From the NCBI GenBank assembly GCA_012103325.1, contig WLWY01000005.1, positions 124,001 to 188,000 of the forward strand: a DNA stretch of 64,000 nt, read 5' to 3'. A model generated the notes under the pieces. It had not been told where the DNA came from. It did not search any database and was given only the letters and a program-made list of their open reading frames with translations. Shown in pieces: positions 20,023 to 28,052 of the stretch (positions within the stretch are counted from its first letter, which is position 1; every line of letters begins with the position of its first letter). The DNA is from Alphaproteobacteria bacterium (GTDB taxonomy: Bacteria; Pseudomonadota; Alphaproteobacteria; UBA8366; GCA-2717185). A program made the translations under genes and the position numbers.

Positions 20023-22155
20023 ATGATGCGGCAATATGAGCTTGTAGAACGCGTTAAGAGCTACGATCCGGGCGCGGATGAGGATGCCCTCAATCGCGCC
20101 TATGTTTTTTCGATGAAAGCGCACGGCACGCAGAAACGCGAATCCGGCGACCCCTATTTTTCCCATCCTGTCGAAGTAGCCGGCATTCTGTCGGACAAGA
20201 AGCTCGACTGCGATTCCATTATTACCGGCCTGCTGCACGATACCGTCGAGGATACGCTGGCGACGATGGAGGATATACAGGGCTTGTTTGGCGACGATGT
20301 CGCTCGGCTCGTGGATGGCGTCACCAAACTCAGCCAGATCGAGACCCTGTCCGACCGCGCCAAGCAGGCGGAAAATTTCCGCAAGCTTCTGCTGGCGATG
20401 TCGCAGGATATTCGCGTTCTACTCGTCAAGCAGGCCGACCGCCTGCACAACATGCGCACGCTGCAATTCGTGCGCAACGAGAAGAAGCGTTCGCGTATTG
20501 CCCTGGAAACGATGGATATCTATGCGCCGCTGGCGGAGCGGATCGGCATTCGCGACTGGAAGGACGAATTGGAAGACCGCGCGTTTATGGAACTTAACCC
20601 CGATGCGCGGGACTCCATTGAACGGCGCCTTACCTTTTTGCGCGAAAGCGGAGGCGATATTGTTGGCCGGGTGACCTCCGAACTGACGCAGACGTTGGCG
20701 AAGAATGGCGTGGAGGCCGATGTGTTCGGCCGAGAAAAGTCGCCCTATTCGATCTGGCGCAAGATGCAGCGCAAGAATATCGGCTTTGAACAGCTTTCCG
20801 ACATCATGGCGTTCCGGGTGATCGTCGAACGGGTCGAGGACTGTTATCAGGCGCTGGGCGCCATCCATGGCCACTACCGCGTCGTCCCCGGCCGGTTCAA
20901 GGATTATGTTTCCATTCCGAAACCGAACGACTACCGGTCTCTGCATACCAGTGTCTACGGCCCGGAGAACCAGCGCATCGAAATACAAATCCGGACCGAG
21001 GAGATGCATCAGGTTGCGGAGCTTGGGGTCGCCGCACATTGGCAGTTCAAGCAGAACAGGACGACCGATGGCCGACAGTATCGCTGGCTGCGAGAGTTGC
21101 TCGAAATTCTTGATCATGCCGAAGCGCCGGAAGAGTTTCTCGAACACACAAAACTTGAGATGTTTTCCGATCAGGTTTTCTGCTTCTCGCCGAAGGGGGA
21201 CCTGATGGAACTGCCGCGTGGCGCGACGCCGGTCGATTTCGCCTATGCCGTACATACCGAGGTTGGCGACAGGTGTGTGAGTGCGAAAATCAACGGGCAC
21301 GCCGTCCCGCTACGGACCGAGCTAAAAAATGGCGATCAGGTGGAAATTCAGACATCCAAGGTTCAGACACCGTCGCCGATGTGGGATGGCTTCGTCGTTA
21401 CCGGCAAGGCTCGCGCCTGCATACGGCGGTTCGTAAGATCCCAAACGCGCGAGCAGTATATCCGGCTCGGCCGTGAAATTGTCGAGAAGGCCTTCCGCCG
21501 CGAAGGGCGTAAGGTCGTGACCAGGACGCTGAAGAGCGTACTGGTCAGCTTTTCCTGCCGTACCTTGGACGATCTGTTCGCAATGGTGGGGCAGGGACAG
21601 CTGACCGGGCAGGAGGTATTCGACGTCACCTATCCCTCGGCCAAACGCGGCCGTAAGCGGCCCGCCACCAGTAACGGCAACGGGAAGGCAGCGCCGGAGG
21701 AATTTGCCGTGCCGATCCGCGGCCTGATCCCGGGGATGGCTGTCCATCTCGCCGCTTGTTGCCACCCGCTTCCCGGGGAGCAAATCGTCGGAATCGTATC
21801 TACGGGTAAGGGTTTGACGGTCCATACGAAAGATTGCGAGACGCTGGAAAATTTTGTCGAGATGCCGGAGCAATGGGTCGGTGTTCAGTGGGACGATAGC
21901 GCGGAAGGGACGGCAAACCATGTCGGCCGGCTCATTGTTATTCTGGCGAACAGGCCGGGCAGCCTGGCGGCACTCACATCGGTCATCGGCCGCAATAATG
22001 GCAACATCTCGAACTTGAAGATAAACGACCGTGCGGAAGAATTCTTCGAAATGCAGATCGACATCGAGGTGAGCGACGTCAAGCATCTGACGAATATCAT
22101 CGCGGAATTGCGCGCGGATCCGGCGGTCGGCTCGGTTGAACGCGCACGAGGCTAA
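20023..22155 (+). CDS. spoT: Bifunctional (p)ppGpp synthetase/hydrolase (RelA/SpoT family)
   Basis: 710 aa; HD region FSHPVEVAGIL...LLHDTVEDT, synthetase region YRVVPGRFKDYVSIPKPNDYRSLHTSV, TGS and ACT domains. Confidence 0.96.
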   Translation: MMRQYELVERVKSYDPGADEDALNRAYVFSMKAHGTQKRESGDPYFSHPVEVAGILSDKKLDCDSIITGLLHDTVEDTLATMEDIQGLFGDDVARLVDGVTKLSQIETLSDRAKQAENFRKLLLAMSQDIRVLLVKQADRLHNMRTLQFVRNEKKRSRIALETMDIYAPLAERIGIRDWKDELEDRAFMELNPDARDSIERRLTFLRESGGDIVGRVTSELTQTLAKNGVEADVFGREKSPYSIWRKMQRKNIGFEQLSDIMAFRVIVERVEDCYQALGAIHGHYRVVPGRFKDYVSIPKPNDYRSLHTSVYGPENQRIEIQIRTEEMHQVAELGVAAHWQFKQNRTTDGRQYRWLRELLEILDHAEAPEEFLEHTKLEMFSDQVFCFSPKGDLMELPRGATPVDFAYAVHTEVGDRCVSAKINGHAVPLRTELKNGDQVEIQTSKVQTPSPMWDGFVVTGKARACIRRFVRSQTREQYIRLGREIVEKAFRREGRKVVTRTLKSVLVSFSCRTLDDLFAMVGQGQLTGQEVFDVTYPSAKRGRKRPATSNGNGKAAPEEFAVPIRGLIPGMAVHLAACCHPLPGEQIVGIVSTGKGLTVHTKDCETLENFVEMPEQWVGVQWDDSAEGTANHVGRLIVILANRPGSLAALTSVIGRNNGNISNLKINDRAEEFFEMQIDIEVSDVKHLTNIIAELRADPAVGSVERARG

Positions 22156-22417
22156 TACCAAGGAGTGATGATAGTGACCCCTAGAGATCGCATCTGCGGT
22201 CCGTCGGGTAGGAGGGACGGCGCCGGCGATGCGGGGCATCGTCAAGCCGTTCCGACGCCCTCCGACGGGCCGCAGACGCGACCGGAACGGCAGCTTAGCG
22301 CGGCTTTCGGACAGCGTCGCGCGCGGCTTTCGATGCCCCGCATCGCCGCGCCGCACGCTCCTTGCCGAAAACCGCGCTAAGCTGTCTCTATGGGTCGCTA
22401 TCATCACTCCTTGGTAT
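22155..22417. repeat. Composite palindromic intergenic element, two hairpin units in opposite orientation
   Basis: Ends ATACCAAGGAGTGATGATAGTGACCCCTAGAGA and, on the reverse strand, ATACCAAGGAGTGATGATAGCGACCCATAGAGA (31/33). Hairpin 1a 22193-22207/22262-22276; hairpin 1b 22291-22310/22365-22384; apical GCGATGCGGGGCATCG at 22226-22241 and reversed at 22331-22346. Confidence 0.9.
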
Positions 22418-22418
22418 A

Positions 22419-23015
22419 ATGTTCAAACGGCGTGAAAAACTGGCCCCTGGCCGGCGGCTCATGGGATGGTTGTGGCCGGAGATGGGGTGGCGGCGGCTTT
22501 GGCGGTATACGGTCTATCGCGTTATTCGGTTGCCCGGCACGCCTTACGGTATTGCCGCAGGGTTCGCGTGCGGAGCGGCGGTTTCCTTTACGCCGCTGAT
22601 CGGACTTCACGTCGTGCTGGGCATGGTGGTTGCTTGGCTGATCCGGGGAAACATGGTCGCGGCACTGATCGGCACGGTACTGGGCAACCCGTGGACCTTC
22701 CCGCTTATCTGGGTTTGGACCTATAAGCTTGGAATATGGCTCGGCGCCGGCTCCCACTCGGCAACGTCTTCGGAGCAAAGGGTCGGCGGCCTGTTGCCGG
22801 ATGTGGTCGACGGGATCCTCCGATTTGACGTGCGGTTTCTTGTTGCCGAGGTCTGGCCGATTATGGCGCCGATGCTGGCTGGTGGTGCCGTCACCGCCAC
22901 CGTTGTTTGGATCGTGGCATTCCTGCTCTTGAAGCGGGTACTCGACATATATCAGAATAGGCGTGCCGCCCGTGTTGGCGCGAAATCACTGAGGGTTGCG
23001 AACCATGAAACCTAA
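22419..23015 (+). CDS. DUF2062 domain membrane protein
   Basis: [64 protein letters not shown]. Confidence 0.9.
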
Positions 23016-24263: not shown

Positions 24264-25058
24264 ATGGCGTCAAAAATTCCCAGGAGTGGCTCTGGCGCTG
24301 AGGCTAAGGCGGAATCGGATTCCGGCGGCGTGCTGGAAACGCTGAAGACCGTTGTTTATGCGATCCTTTTTGCCGTTATCGTCCGAACCTTCGCGTTCGA
24401 ACCCTTCAACATTCCGTCCGGGTCGATGATCCCGACATTGTTGGTCGGGGACTATCTGTTCGTTTCCAAATTTTCCTACGGGTACAGCAAGCACTCGCTG
24501 CCGTTCAGCCCACCGATTTTCAAAGGCCGGATCTTCGAAAGCCAGCCGGAGCGCGGCGATGTCGCCGTCTTCAAGCTGCCGCGCGACAACAAGACCGATT
24601 ATATAAAGCGGATCATCGGATTGCCGGGCGACCGCATTCAGGTCATCACCGGTATCTTGCATGTGAATGGCGAGCCGATGAAGCGCCGGCGGGTCGGCGA
24701 TTTCCCGGGGGAGCGGCCAGGCCAGCGGGCGGCGATCCAGTATCAGGAGACGCTGCCGGGCGGACTTGTCCACAACATCATCGAAACGAATGGCGATTTC
24801 GGACCGTTGGACAACACCGGTATCTTTACCGTGCCGAAGGGACATTATTTCGCGATGGGCGACAATCGCGACAGTTCCCTGGACAGCCGTGTACTCAACA
24901 GGGACGGGTCTGCCCCGGTCGGGTTTGTTCCCGCGGAGAACCTGGTTGGGCGGGCGGAATTCCTGTTCTTCTCGACCAATGGCGAGGCCCGAATCTGGGA
25001 AATCTGGAAATGGCCGTTTTCGATACGCTACAGTCGCCTCTTTAACGGCATTGAGTAG
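24264..25058 (+). CDS. lepB: Signal peptidase I
   Basis: FNIPSGSMIPTLLVGDYLFVSKFSYG...GDVAVFKLPRDNKTDYIKRIIGLPGDRIQ...YFAMGDNRDSSLDSR. Confidence 0.96.
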   Translation: MASKIPRSGSGAEAKAESDSGGVLETLKTVVYAILFAVIVRTFAFEPFNIPSGSMIPTLLVGDYLFVSKFSYGYSKHSLPFSPPIFKGRIFESQPERGDVAVFKLPRDNKTDYIKRIIGLPGDRIQVITGILHVNGEPMKRRRVGDFPGERPGQRAAIQYQETLPGGLVHNIIETNGDFGPLDNTGIFTVPKGHYFAMGDNRDSSLDSRVLNRDGSAPVGFVPAENLVGRAEFLFFSTNGEARIWEIWKWPFSIRYSRLFNGIE

Positions 25059-25060
25059 TC

Positions 25061-25220
25061 ATACCAAGGAGCGGTGATAGTGACCCTTAGAGACGGGTTA
25101 TCCAGGCCTTCGGCAAGGAGCATACGGTGCAGCGATGCGGGGCATCGGAAGCCGTGTGCGACGCAGCCCGAAGGCCTGGATAACCCGTCTCTAAGGGTCA
25201 CTATCACCGCTCCTTGGTAT
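25061..25220. repeat. Palindromic intergenic element, single unit with perfect 53-bp arms, same family as 22155-22417
   Basis: 25061-25113 ATACCAAGGAGCGGTGATAGTGACCCTTAGAGACGGGTTATCCAGGCCTTCGG is the exact reverse complement of 25168-25220; 54-nt loop with GCGATGCGGGGCATCG at 25132-25147. Confidence 0.95.
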
Positions 25221-25242
25221 AACCTCCCGAAGCGGCGGAGCG

Positions 25243-25914
25243 ATGACGAAAGAACTTGCCGCAGCGTTACAGTATGAGTTCAGCGATTCCCAGGTGCTGG
25301 CCACCGCGCTGACGCACGGCAGTGCGGCGTCCAAGCCGGATGACACCTATGAGCGCCTCGAATTTCTCGGCGACCGGGTCTTGTCCCTCGCGATCGCCGA
25401 GCTGCTTTTCAATTCCTATCCCGACGAGAACGAAGGCAAGCTTGCCCGCCGCTATGTCGCGTTGGTGCGCCGGGAAACCCTGGCCGATGTCGCGACGGAG
25501 CTAGGGCTGGGCGCGTATATCGTCATGAGCCAGAGCGAGGCCGATGCGGGCGGCCGCGAAAACCCGTCGCTGCTGGCGGATGTTTGCGAAGCGGTCATCG
25601 CGGCCATATATCTCGATGGCGGATTGGCGCCGGCCGTGTCCTTCATTCAGCGCTATTGGCGGGACCGGATGAACCAGTCGGATAAGCCGCCGCTCGATGC
25701 GAAAACGGCCCTGCAGGAATGGGCCCAGGGGCGGGGACTGCCGCTGCCGGCCTACGAAATCGTCGAGCGCACGGGGCCGGATCATGCGCCGACCTTTACC
25801 ATCGCCGTGTCCGTCGGCGATAGCCAGACGGGGCAGGGCGAAGGCTCGACCCGACGCGCGGCGGAGCAGGCGGCGGCTGAGGTTTTGCTGGAAATGTTGA
25901 CGGCCGATGACTGA
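25243..25914 (+). CDS. rnc: Ribonuclease III
   Basis: YERLEFLGDRVLSLAIAELLFNSYPDENEGKL signature; C-terminal dsRBD. Confidence 0.96.
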   Translation: MTKELAAALQYEFSDSQVLATALTHGSAASKPDDTYERLEFLGDRVLSLAIAELLFNSYPDENEGKLARRYVALVRRETLADVATELGLGAYIVMSQSEADAGGRENPSLLADVCEAVIAAIYLDGGLAPAVSFIQRYWRDRMNQSDKPPLDAKTALQEWAQGRGLPLPAYEIVERTGPDHAPTFTIAVSVGDSQTGQGEGSTRRAAEQAAAEVLLEMLTADD

Positions 25915-26812
25915 CGAACCTGAAAACACCGGTATGCGCTTTGGTTTTATCGCCGTTCTGGGTGCGCCGAACGCCGGCAAGTCCACGCTGATCAACCGGA
26001 TCGTTGGCGCGAAGGTGTCGATCGTCTCGCCCAAGGTGCAGACGACGCGGACCCGGGTTCTCGGCATCATGATTCAGGACAAGAGCCAACTCGTCTTCGT
26101 CGATACGCCGGGCATTTTTGCACCGAAGAAGCGGCTCGACCGCGCGATGGTGGACGCCGCCTGGAAAGGCGCGTCCGACGCCGACCTGCTGGCGCTGGTT
26201 GTCGACAGCGAGCGGGGCTTCGACCGCAATACACGGAACATTGTCGCGAATCTGAAGTCGGATGCGGTTCTGATACTCAACAAGGTCGACCGGGTGCCCC
26301 GCGAAAAACTGCTGGCGTTGGCACAGTCGATCCACGAGGCGGGGAAATTTCGTGAGACCTTCATGATTTCCGCGCTGAACGGCGACGGCGTGGACGATCT
26401 GGTCGCCTATTTTGCGGCCCAAGTGCCGGCGGGAATCTGGATGTTCCCGGACGACCAGCTTTCCGACATGCCGATGCGCCTGATGGCGGCGGAGATCGTC
26501 CGCGAACAGCTTTTCCTGCAGCTCCATCAGGAACTGCCCTACGCCCTAACGGTCGAGACCGAGGACTGGAAGACGCTGAAGGACGGCAGCGTGCGTATCG
26601 CGGCCGTCGTCATCATCGAGCGTGACAGTCACAAGGGCATGGTGCTGGGCAAGCGCGGTGCGCGGATCAAGGAAGTCGGCGCGACGGCGCGCGCCGAACT
26701 CGAAACCATGTTCGACTGCAAGGTGCATTTGTTCCTGCACGTCAAGGTACGCAGCGACTGGAAGGACAAGGCCGAGCACTACCGCGCCCTCGGCCTCGAC
26801 TTCCCGTCTTAA
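25907..26812 (+). CDS. era: GTPase Era
   Basis: GAPNAGKSTLINRIVGAKVSIVSPKVQTTRTRVLGI; C-terminal KH domain; overlaps rnc by 8 nt. Confidence 0.96.
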   Translation: MTDEPENTGMRFGFIAVLGAPNAGKSTLINRIVGAKVSIVSPKVQTTRTRVLGIMIQDKSQLVFVDTPGIFAPKKRLDRAMVDAAWKGASDADLLALVVDSERGFDRNTRNIVANLKSDAVLILNKVDRVPREKLLALAQSIHEAGKFRETFMISALNGDGVDDLVAYFAAQVPAGIWMFPDDQLSDMPMRLMAAEIVREQLFLQLHQELPYALTVETEDWKTLKDGSVRIAAVVIIERDSHKGMVLGKRGARIKEVGATARAELETMFDCKVHLFLHVKVRSDWKDKAEHYRALGLDFPS

Positions 26813-26878
26813 GGATTCCTCTGCGTAATAAGGCTATCGGCCTCGTTTCCACCCCCTTCCTAACCTTCCCCCCTCAAG

Positions 26879-28035
26879 GAGACCTCTGCGAAATGGGTAG
26901 CAACTTTGTCGAAACGGTGATTCTTTAGAGTGATCGCTATGACGGAGGTCTTGATGGGTGAGAAGCGGGTTGGTGAGGGTGGCTTTGCGGATGCGTTTGT
27001 GGCGCCGGGTGCGGGTTCGAATAAACGTCTGGAGCGTATCGAAGGTCTTTTCGACTGGTCTCGCTTCGAGAAGCTCCTGAAGTCGGTTCGCTCGAAGAAG
27101 GGGCGCAGAGGGTATCCGGCGCTGTCGATGTACAAGGCGGTTTTGCTGCAGCAATGGTATGGTCTTTCCGACCCGGACCTGGAGGAGGCGTTGGGGGATC
27201 GTCTGTCGTTCCGACGGTTCTGCGGGTTCTCGTTGAGCGACGAGACACCGGACGAGACGACGTTCGTGCGCTTCCGGGCGGCGCTGGCAGAGAGGAAACT
27301 GACGGCGAAGCTTCTGGCGGAAACGAACCGGCAGTTGGAGCGTCACGGGCTGATGCTGAAGACGGGCACACTGATCGATGCCACCCTGATCGAGGCTTCG
27401 GTCAGCCGGCCGTCCGGTGTTTCCGGCGGGCGTTCGGCGCTCGATCCGGATGCCGATTGGACGCGGCGCGGGCGCACGGCCTATTTCGGGTACAAGGCGC
27501 ATATCGCCGTCGATCAGGGCTCCGAATTGATCCGCGATGCGATGATGACGTCGGCCAAAACCTATGAGAGCGAAGTGGCCGACGCGCTGATCCAGGGCGA
27601 CGAGCGGGCGGTCTATGCTGACAAAGCCTATGAGCACAAGGAGCGCCGCCGGCGCCTCAAGGCGAGGGGCATCAAGGACCGGATCATGCACCGCAGCCAT
27701 AAGAACCAACCGGCGCTGCCGCACTGGCAACAGGTCCGCAACCGCCTGATCTCCCCGATCCGCGCTAATGTCGAGCGCCTGTTCGGAACTCTGAAGCGGT
27801 CTTACCGATACCGCCGGGCCCGATACAGGGGGATGCAGAAGAACCAGTCCCACCTTCATCTCCTGTGCATCGCCATGAACCTGAGACGTGCCGAAACTCT
27901 TATGCCCTGACACCGTCCCTTGCCGATCTCGTCAAGAGCGTCCCAAAACCCAACGCGAAAAACCGCCAAACCTATGCACCAACCTCCAAACCCAACGATT
28001 ATCTCCGATCCTGAACCCGTTTCGCAGAGGTCTTC
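26879..28035. mobile_element. IS5-family-like insertion sequence
   Basis: Left end GAGACCTCTGCGAAATGGGT (26879-26898), right end ACCCGTTTCGCAGAGGTCTTC (28015-28035) in inverted orientation, flanking an IS5-type transposase. Confidence 0.85.
26939..27910 (+). CDS. IS5 family transposase
   Basis: YPALSMYKAVLLQQWYGLSDPDLEEALGDRLSFRRFCGFSLSDETPDETTFVRFR...GTLIDATLIEAS...NVERLFGTLKRSYRYRRARYRG. Confidence 0.93.
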   Translation: MTEVLMGEKRVGEGGFADAFVAPGAGSNKRLERIEGLFDWSRFEKLLKSVRSKKGRRGYPALSMYKAVLLQQWYGLSDPDLEEALGDRLSFRRFCGFSLSDETPDETTFVRFRAALAERKLTAKLLAETNRQLERHGLMLKTGTLIDATLIEASVSRPSGVSGGRSALDPDADWTRRGRTAYFGYKAHIAVDQGSELIRDAMMTSAKTYESEVADALIQGDERAVYADKAYEHKERRRRLKARGIKDRIMHRSHKNQPALPHWQQVRNRLISPIRANVERLFGTLKRSYRYRRARYRGMQKNQSHLHLLCIAMNLRRAETLMP

Positions 28036-28052
28036 TTAAGGGCTCGCGCCGC

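Follow-up and report, generated by a model that had tools for sequence, protein, structure and literature searches.

The perfect palindrome directly upstream of the gene for RNase III in this alphaproteobacterial genome raises the question of whether the enzyme's own message has acquired a dedicated cleavage site, or whether the palindrome has some other origin. A sequence-only reading of the window (the whole stretch of 64,000 nucleotides analyzed here) had favored the first possibility and proposed a self-targeting leader. The exact arms reported in that reading are confirmed, since 25061-25113 and 25168-25220 on the plus strand are perfect reverse complements of 53 bp, separated by a loop of 54 nt; the arms reach 56 nt when one mismatch is allowed. 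The RNA of the region has a predicted folding energy of -146.6 kcal/mol, compared with -68.7 +/- 4.3 kcal/mol for shuffled sequences (z -18), and a chance origin of the perfect 53-bp palindrome is ruled out. The 54-nt loop is also predicted to fold, forming an inner 9-bp helix and a terminal CGATGC/GCATCG helix, and the whole 160-bp element would hence be a single long hairpin.

Three plus-strand genes define the setting: lepB, encoding signal peptidase I (24264-25058), rnc, encoding RNase III (25243-25914; TIGR02191, 5e-73), and era, the next gene in the presumed operon (25907-26812; identified from its sequence). The element begins 2 nt past the lepB stop codon and ends 22 bp before the rnc ATG, whose previously assigned position at 25243 holds, and a GGAG ribosome-binding-like site for rnc at 25237-25240 lies outside it. 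Being situated between lepB and rnc, the palindrome is intercistronic and not the 5′ leader that had been supposed. Among the 26 relatives for which both lepB and rnc were present on the retrieved locus, all 26 have an element-free gap of 4-69 bp between these genes, and in three genomes of the same genus the gap is 21-25 bp. The host gap of 184 bp corresponds to 24 bp plus a 160-bp element, and comparison with the short empty gaps of relatives indicates that the insertion occurred in the host's own lineage. The spacing of 4-69 bp in relatives also makes it plausible that lepB, rnc and era are co-transcribed.

In the host genome, which spans 6.3 Mb on 24 contigs, a DNA-level search identified 136 segments that match the element. 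At least 35 copies could be delimited at both ends; most measure 262-265 bp (usually 263 bp), and the shorter variants measure 138-195 bp. The delimited copies almost all start with ATACCAAGG and end with its complement, and their terminal inverted repeats (TIRs) are 33 bp long. The target duplications are of 3 bp and mostly conform to TNA, with both sides identical in 21 of 35 host copies (TTA, TAA or TGA). For the lepB-rnc copy, the left TIR, ATACCAAGGAGCGGTGATAGTGACCCTTAGAGA, occupies 25061-25093 on the plus strand and the right TIR occupies 25188-25220 on the minus strand. Its flanking trinucleotides, TCA on the left (25059-25061) and TAA on the right (25220-25222), are unequal, and thus the target duplication of this particular copy is not intact. 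With a length of 160-263 bp, no coding capacity, multiple copies, TIRs, target-site duplication and an empty site in relatives, the lepB-rnc element is a MITE by all features tested except an identified parent. No autonomous parent IS with matching ends was found among all DDE_Tnp_1 ISs of the host or at single TIR sites. The two TIRs of one copy differ at 0-8 of 33 positions, and the mean of 2.34 mismatches compares with 3.35 between TIRs of different copies; no value as low was obtained in 20,000 permutations. Subfamily structure can contribute to this better match within copies. At both 25215-25223 and 22412-22420, the TIR end and the TAA target together form TGGTATAA(C/T), an outward-pointing sequence that resembles an extended -10 element.

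In the predicted fold of full copies, the TIR stem closes two hairpins, A and B, that are separated by a CCCTTCGGG-type linker. Alignment of the delimited copies reveals that the lepB-rnc copy (25061-25220) is a short form from which both the linker and hairpin B are missing. As a consequence of this loss, the TIR runs directly into the outer stem of hairpin A, which gives a continuous stem of 53 bp, with the left arm composed of the 33-bp TIR and the 5′ strand of the outer stem. The retained hairpin A (25094-25187, plus strand) comprises the outer stem, a conserved AGGAG internal loop (25116-25120), an inner stem and a near-invariant terminal hairpin, CGATGC-GGG-GCATCG (25133-25147), both motifs being defined by alignment A1. 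It is matched by covariance model R1 at C5:149090-149189 (95.6 bits, E 6e-19). Snap-back template switching was considered as a source of the perfect arms and was rejected, because the alignment indicates that the loss of hairpin B suffices for the geometry. The two arms agree even where this copy deviates from most others (TT to CC in the outer stem), so the arms may have been homogenized.

Genes adjacent to 30 of the host copies were assigned by a simple codon-usage gene call, which places 18 copies between co-directional genes, 6 between convergent genes and 6 between divergent genes. The TNA target coincides with the stop codon (TAA or TGA) of a neighboring gene in 14 of the 30 copies (G000, L004-L030), a count that does not tell target preference and selection apart. 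Gene pairs split by a copy, as classified by Pfam, include NuoK/NuoL-type, MreD/PBP-transpeptidase, OppC/oligopeptide ABC ATPase, RadA-like AAA/CvpA, RelA-SpoT/DUF2062 and transaldolase/epimerase. Both nuo and mre-mrd operons require expression of the downstream gene. Because downstream genes are needed in several of the split operons, strong termination by the MITE is improbable. A second, full-length copy in the window (263 bp, 22155-22417) resides in the TAA stop codon of a relA/spoT gene. Without this insert the junction would read TAATG, with the stop overlapping the start, and the target duplication leaves both flanking genes intact.

We conclude with high confidence that the palindrome is a deleted copy of a multicopy MITE, located in a TNA target of the approximately 24-bp lepB-rnc spacer, and that any effect on rnc is incidental. 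A transposase acting in trans on the TIRs probably moved the element into this target, and the loss of hairpin B fused the TIR stem to hairpin A to yield the perfect 53-bp stem. A transcript reading through from lepB into rnc would plausibly hold a duplex of more than 50 bp, which is a generic substrate for RNase III. The enzyme should cut this uninterrupted duplex and thereby part the lepB and rnc messages. However, equal cutting is expected at every transcribed copy, and so the effect at the level of RNase III would not reflect an evolved operator. Likewise, the interspersed, multicopy nature of the element argues against a purpose-built RNase III switch. The proposal of a dedicated self-targeting leader at rnc is therefore not sustained: this is one of at least 35 MITE copies, it is present in none of the 26 relatives, and its sisters lie at genes unrelated to RNase III.

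It could still be argued that the hairpin functions as an rnc operator, wherein cleavage by RNase III destabilizes rnc mRNA and establishes negative feedback like that of E. coli rncO, with an unrelated sequence. The perfect duplex and the tight operon spacer are consistent with this arrangement, and a consensus scan of the spacer gave no promoter-like or terminator-like site. Moreover, RNase III cleaves the TIRs of Correia elements, which are also MITEs (PMC10969869), and E. coli RNase III regulates its own mRNA through a structure in the 5′ UTR (PMC5371410). The two systems would share an RNase III-cleavable structure linked to rnc, which here is predicted. Nevertheless, the E. coli operator is a conserved part of the 5′ UTR, whereas the host carries a lineage-specific transposon copy that is missing in all 26 relatives, and the same element is held by many unrelated operons. 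An intercistronic cut would furthermore free rnc with its own ribosome-binding site, and no protective leader would be removed. An operator thus appears quite unlikely. Alternatively, the element might be a lepB terminator or might stabilize the 3′ end of the lepB mRNA, as REP sequences and other 3′ palindromes do. Its start 2 nt past the lepB stop and the recurrent use of stop codons as targets (14 of 30 copies) speak for such a role, but the stem lacks a following T-run, and strong termination conflicts with the copies within nuoK-nuoL, mreD-PBP2 and oppC-oppD, pairs in which expression must reach the second gene. We regard this possibility as improbable as well.

Insertion beside TAA has also generated an extended -10-like sequence toward rnc, TGGTATAAC (25215-25223), and the TIR end could in principle be a promoter from which rnc transcription starts near 25230, leaving the hairpin out of the message. 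The second copy in the window has TGGTATAATG at 22412-22420, which is in keeping with this proposal. However, the consensus promoter scan was negative, there is no good -35 element, a start near 25230 would give a leader of only 13 nt, and the motif may be a coincidental product of the TIR and the TAA target. Such a promoter is very unlikely. The locus cautions that even a striking palindrome beside an RNase gene may owe its position to chance insertion of a transposon.

The larger result extends beyond this interval and concerns the MITE family and its core, which are the part worth following. Bacterial MITEs are usually viewed as deletion remnants of a single IS, with an interior that has no meaning. 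Relatives have the same two-hairpin interior and other ends. In an alignment of 36 divergent hairpin units, 23 of the 30 consensus pairs have changed on both sides. Paired cells make up 89.8% of this alignment, compared with 66% for shuffles and at most 44% for slid controls, and the covariation score is 0.628, compared with 0.208 and at most 0.212, respectively. Sequence hardly varies in the terminal hairpin or the AGGAG / GACG loop, and stem sequences are free to vary so long as pairing is kept. As a test for selection at the RNA level, we compared G-U pairs (39) with A-C mismatches (2) in the inner stem, for which column shuffling yields a null G-U share of 0.71; this excess is only suggestive, because the pairs were taken from RNAalifold.

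Covariance model R1 detects 110 units in the host. Among 44 genomes of the order, 20 contain units, as do 33 of the 337 genomes sampled from the class, these 33 carriers representing 30 genera. Carriers include Marivibrio halodurans (about 44 matches) and Thalassospira tepidiphila (5). There was no R1 positive beyond the class in a phylum-level sample, for which the number of out-of-class genomes is not given, and searches of plasmids (PLSDB) and viral contigs yielded zero copies. Matches to a 22-mer pattern in Actinopolyspora, Holdemania, Massilia, Duganella and Sphingomonas were treated as chance, since none of them yielded a complete unit.

At least five TIR sets occur on one core in the host genome (ATACCAAGGAGCG, GGAGCCTGTCCGAGTAATG, TAGTGGACACAATCTAACATA, CTAGTGTCCTGGGACAG and the ends of L200), and more than 10 are found across the class. 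No IS bearing the end sets ATACCAAGGAGCG, GGAGCCTGTCCGAGTAATG or TAGTGGACACAATCTAACATA was found in the host genome. These comparisons demonstrate a core that is conserved by compensatory changes under many TIRs across Alphaproteobacteria. An interior that is conserved in this way over many genera, with ends that change, is the reverse of the usual view of MITEs, and the long-open question of whether a MITE interior does anything becomes testable. Our best guess, which we put somewhat short of an even chance, is that the core has a role at the transcript level; for example, it might protect or process host mRNA such that insertions are tolerated. A more elaborate scenario, and a rather doubtful one, is that the two-hairpin core is a functional module selected as RNA in Alphaproteobacteria and repeatedly captured by different transposon ends, forming a mobile mRNA-processing cassette that prefers operon-internal stop codons.

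Several known repeats share some of these features. Correia or NEMIS elements of Neisseria are multicopy MITEs whose TIR duplex is cut by RNase III in transcripts (PMC2229807, PMC10969869), and like them the present family is short and multicopy, with TIRs, a long predicted RNA hairpin, and copies that are adjacent to genes and presumably in transcripts. Its sequence is unrelated, however, with a different TIR (33 bp) and a TNA target instead of the TA duplicated by Correia elements (PMC2229807), and it has a covarying two-hairpin core on which several alternative TIR sets are placed. CIR of Caulobacter and Brucella, whose modeled RNA consists of two arms connected through a linker (PMC2229807), and RIME of Rhizobium are likewise alphaproteobacterial intergenic repeats. 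CIRs carry GANTC at the terminal loop and have no end-to-end stem, whereas the present elements have such a stem, and GANTC is found anywhere in only 10 of 184 units and centrally in 1. R1 had no match (E <= 0.1) in S. meliloti pSymB (1.68 Mb), a search that had no RIME positive control; as far as pSymB tests this, the MITE family is probably distinct from RIME. Paired inverted hairpins that are intergenic and mobile are also typical of REP/BIME-REPIN, whose hairpins adjoin a conserved GTAG tetranucleotide. Unlike those elements, the present ones are bounded by TIRs with target duplications, and GTAG precedes the stem in 33 of about 180 scored units, the others having CAAG, GCAG, TTAG or CTAG.

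Rfam gave no above-chance match for the lepB-rnc region or for representative elements. A full-text literature search with words from the element sequence returned unrelated papers only, and no alphaproteobacterial MITE of this kind was described in the literature searched, with subscription journals mostly outside the coverage of both. This family, in which exchangeable ends flank a structured core with covariation, appears to be undescribed.

The other MITE families of the host that carry the same core (II-V, L177-L200) include approximately 16 copies of the GGAGCCTGTCC type and 4 of the TAGTGGACACA type, among others. Tip-only remnants of 31-37 bp at L075, L078, L079, L081 and L083 are apparently collapsed or deleted copies. 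Directly 3′ of era is an IS5-family element (26871-28042) with imperfect TIRs of 28 bp and a transposase gene at 26930-27910. This transposase has 29 near-identical matches in the host genome, and the ends of the element are unlike those of the MITE.
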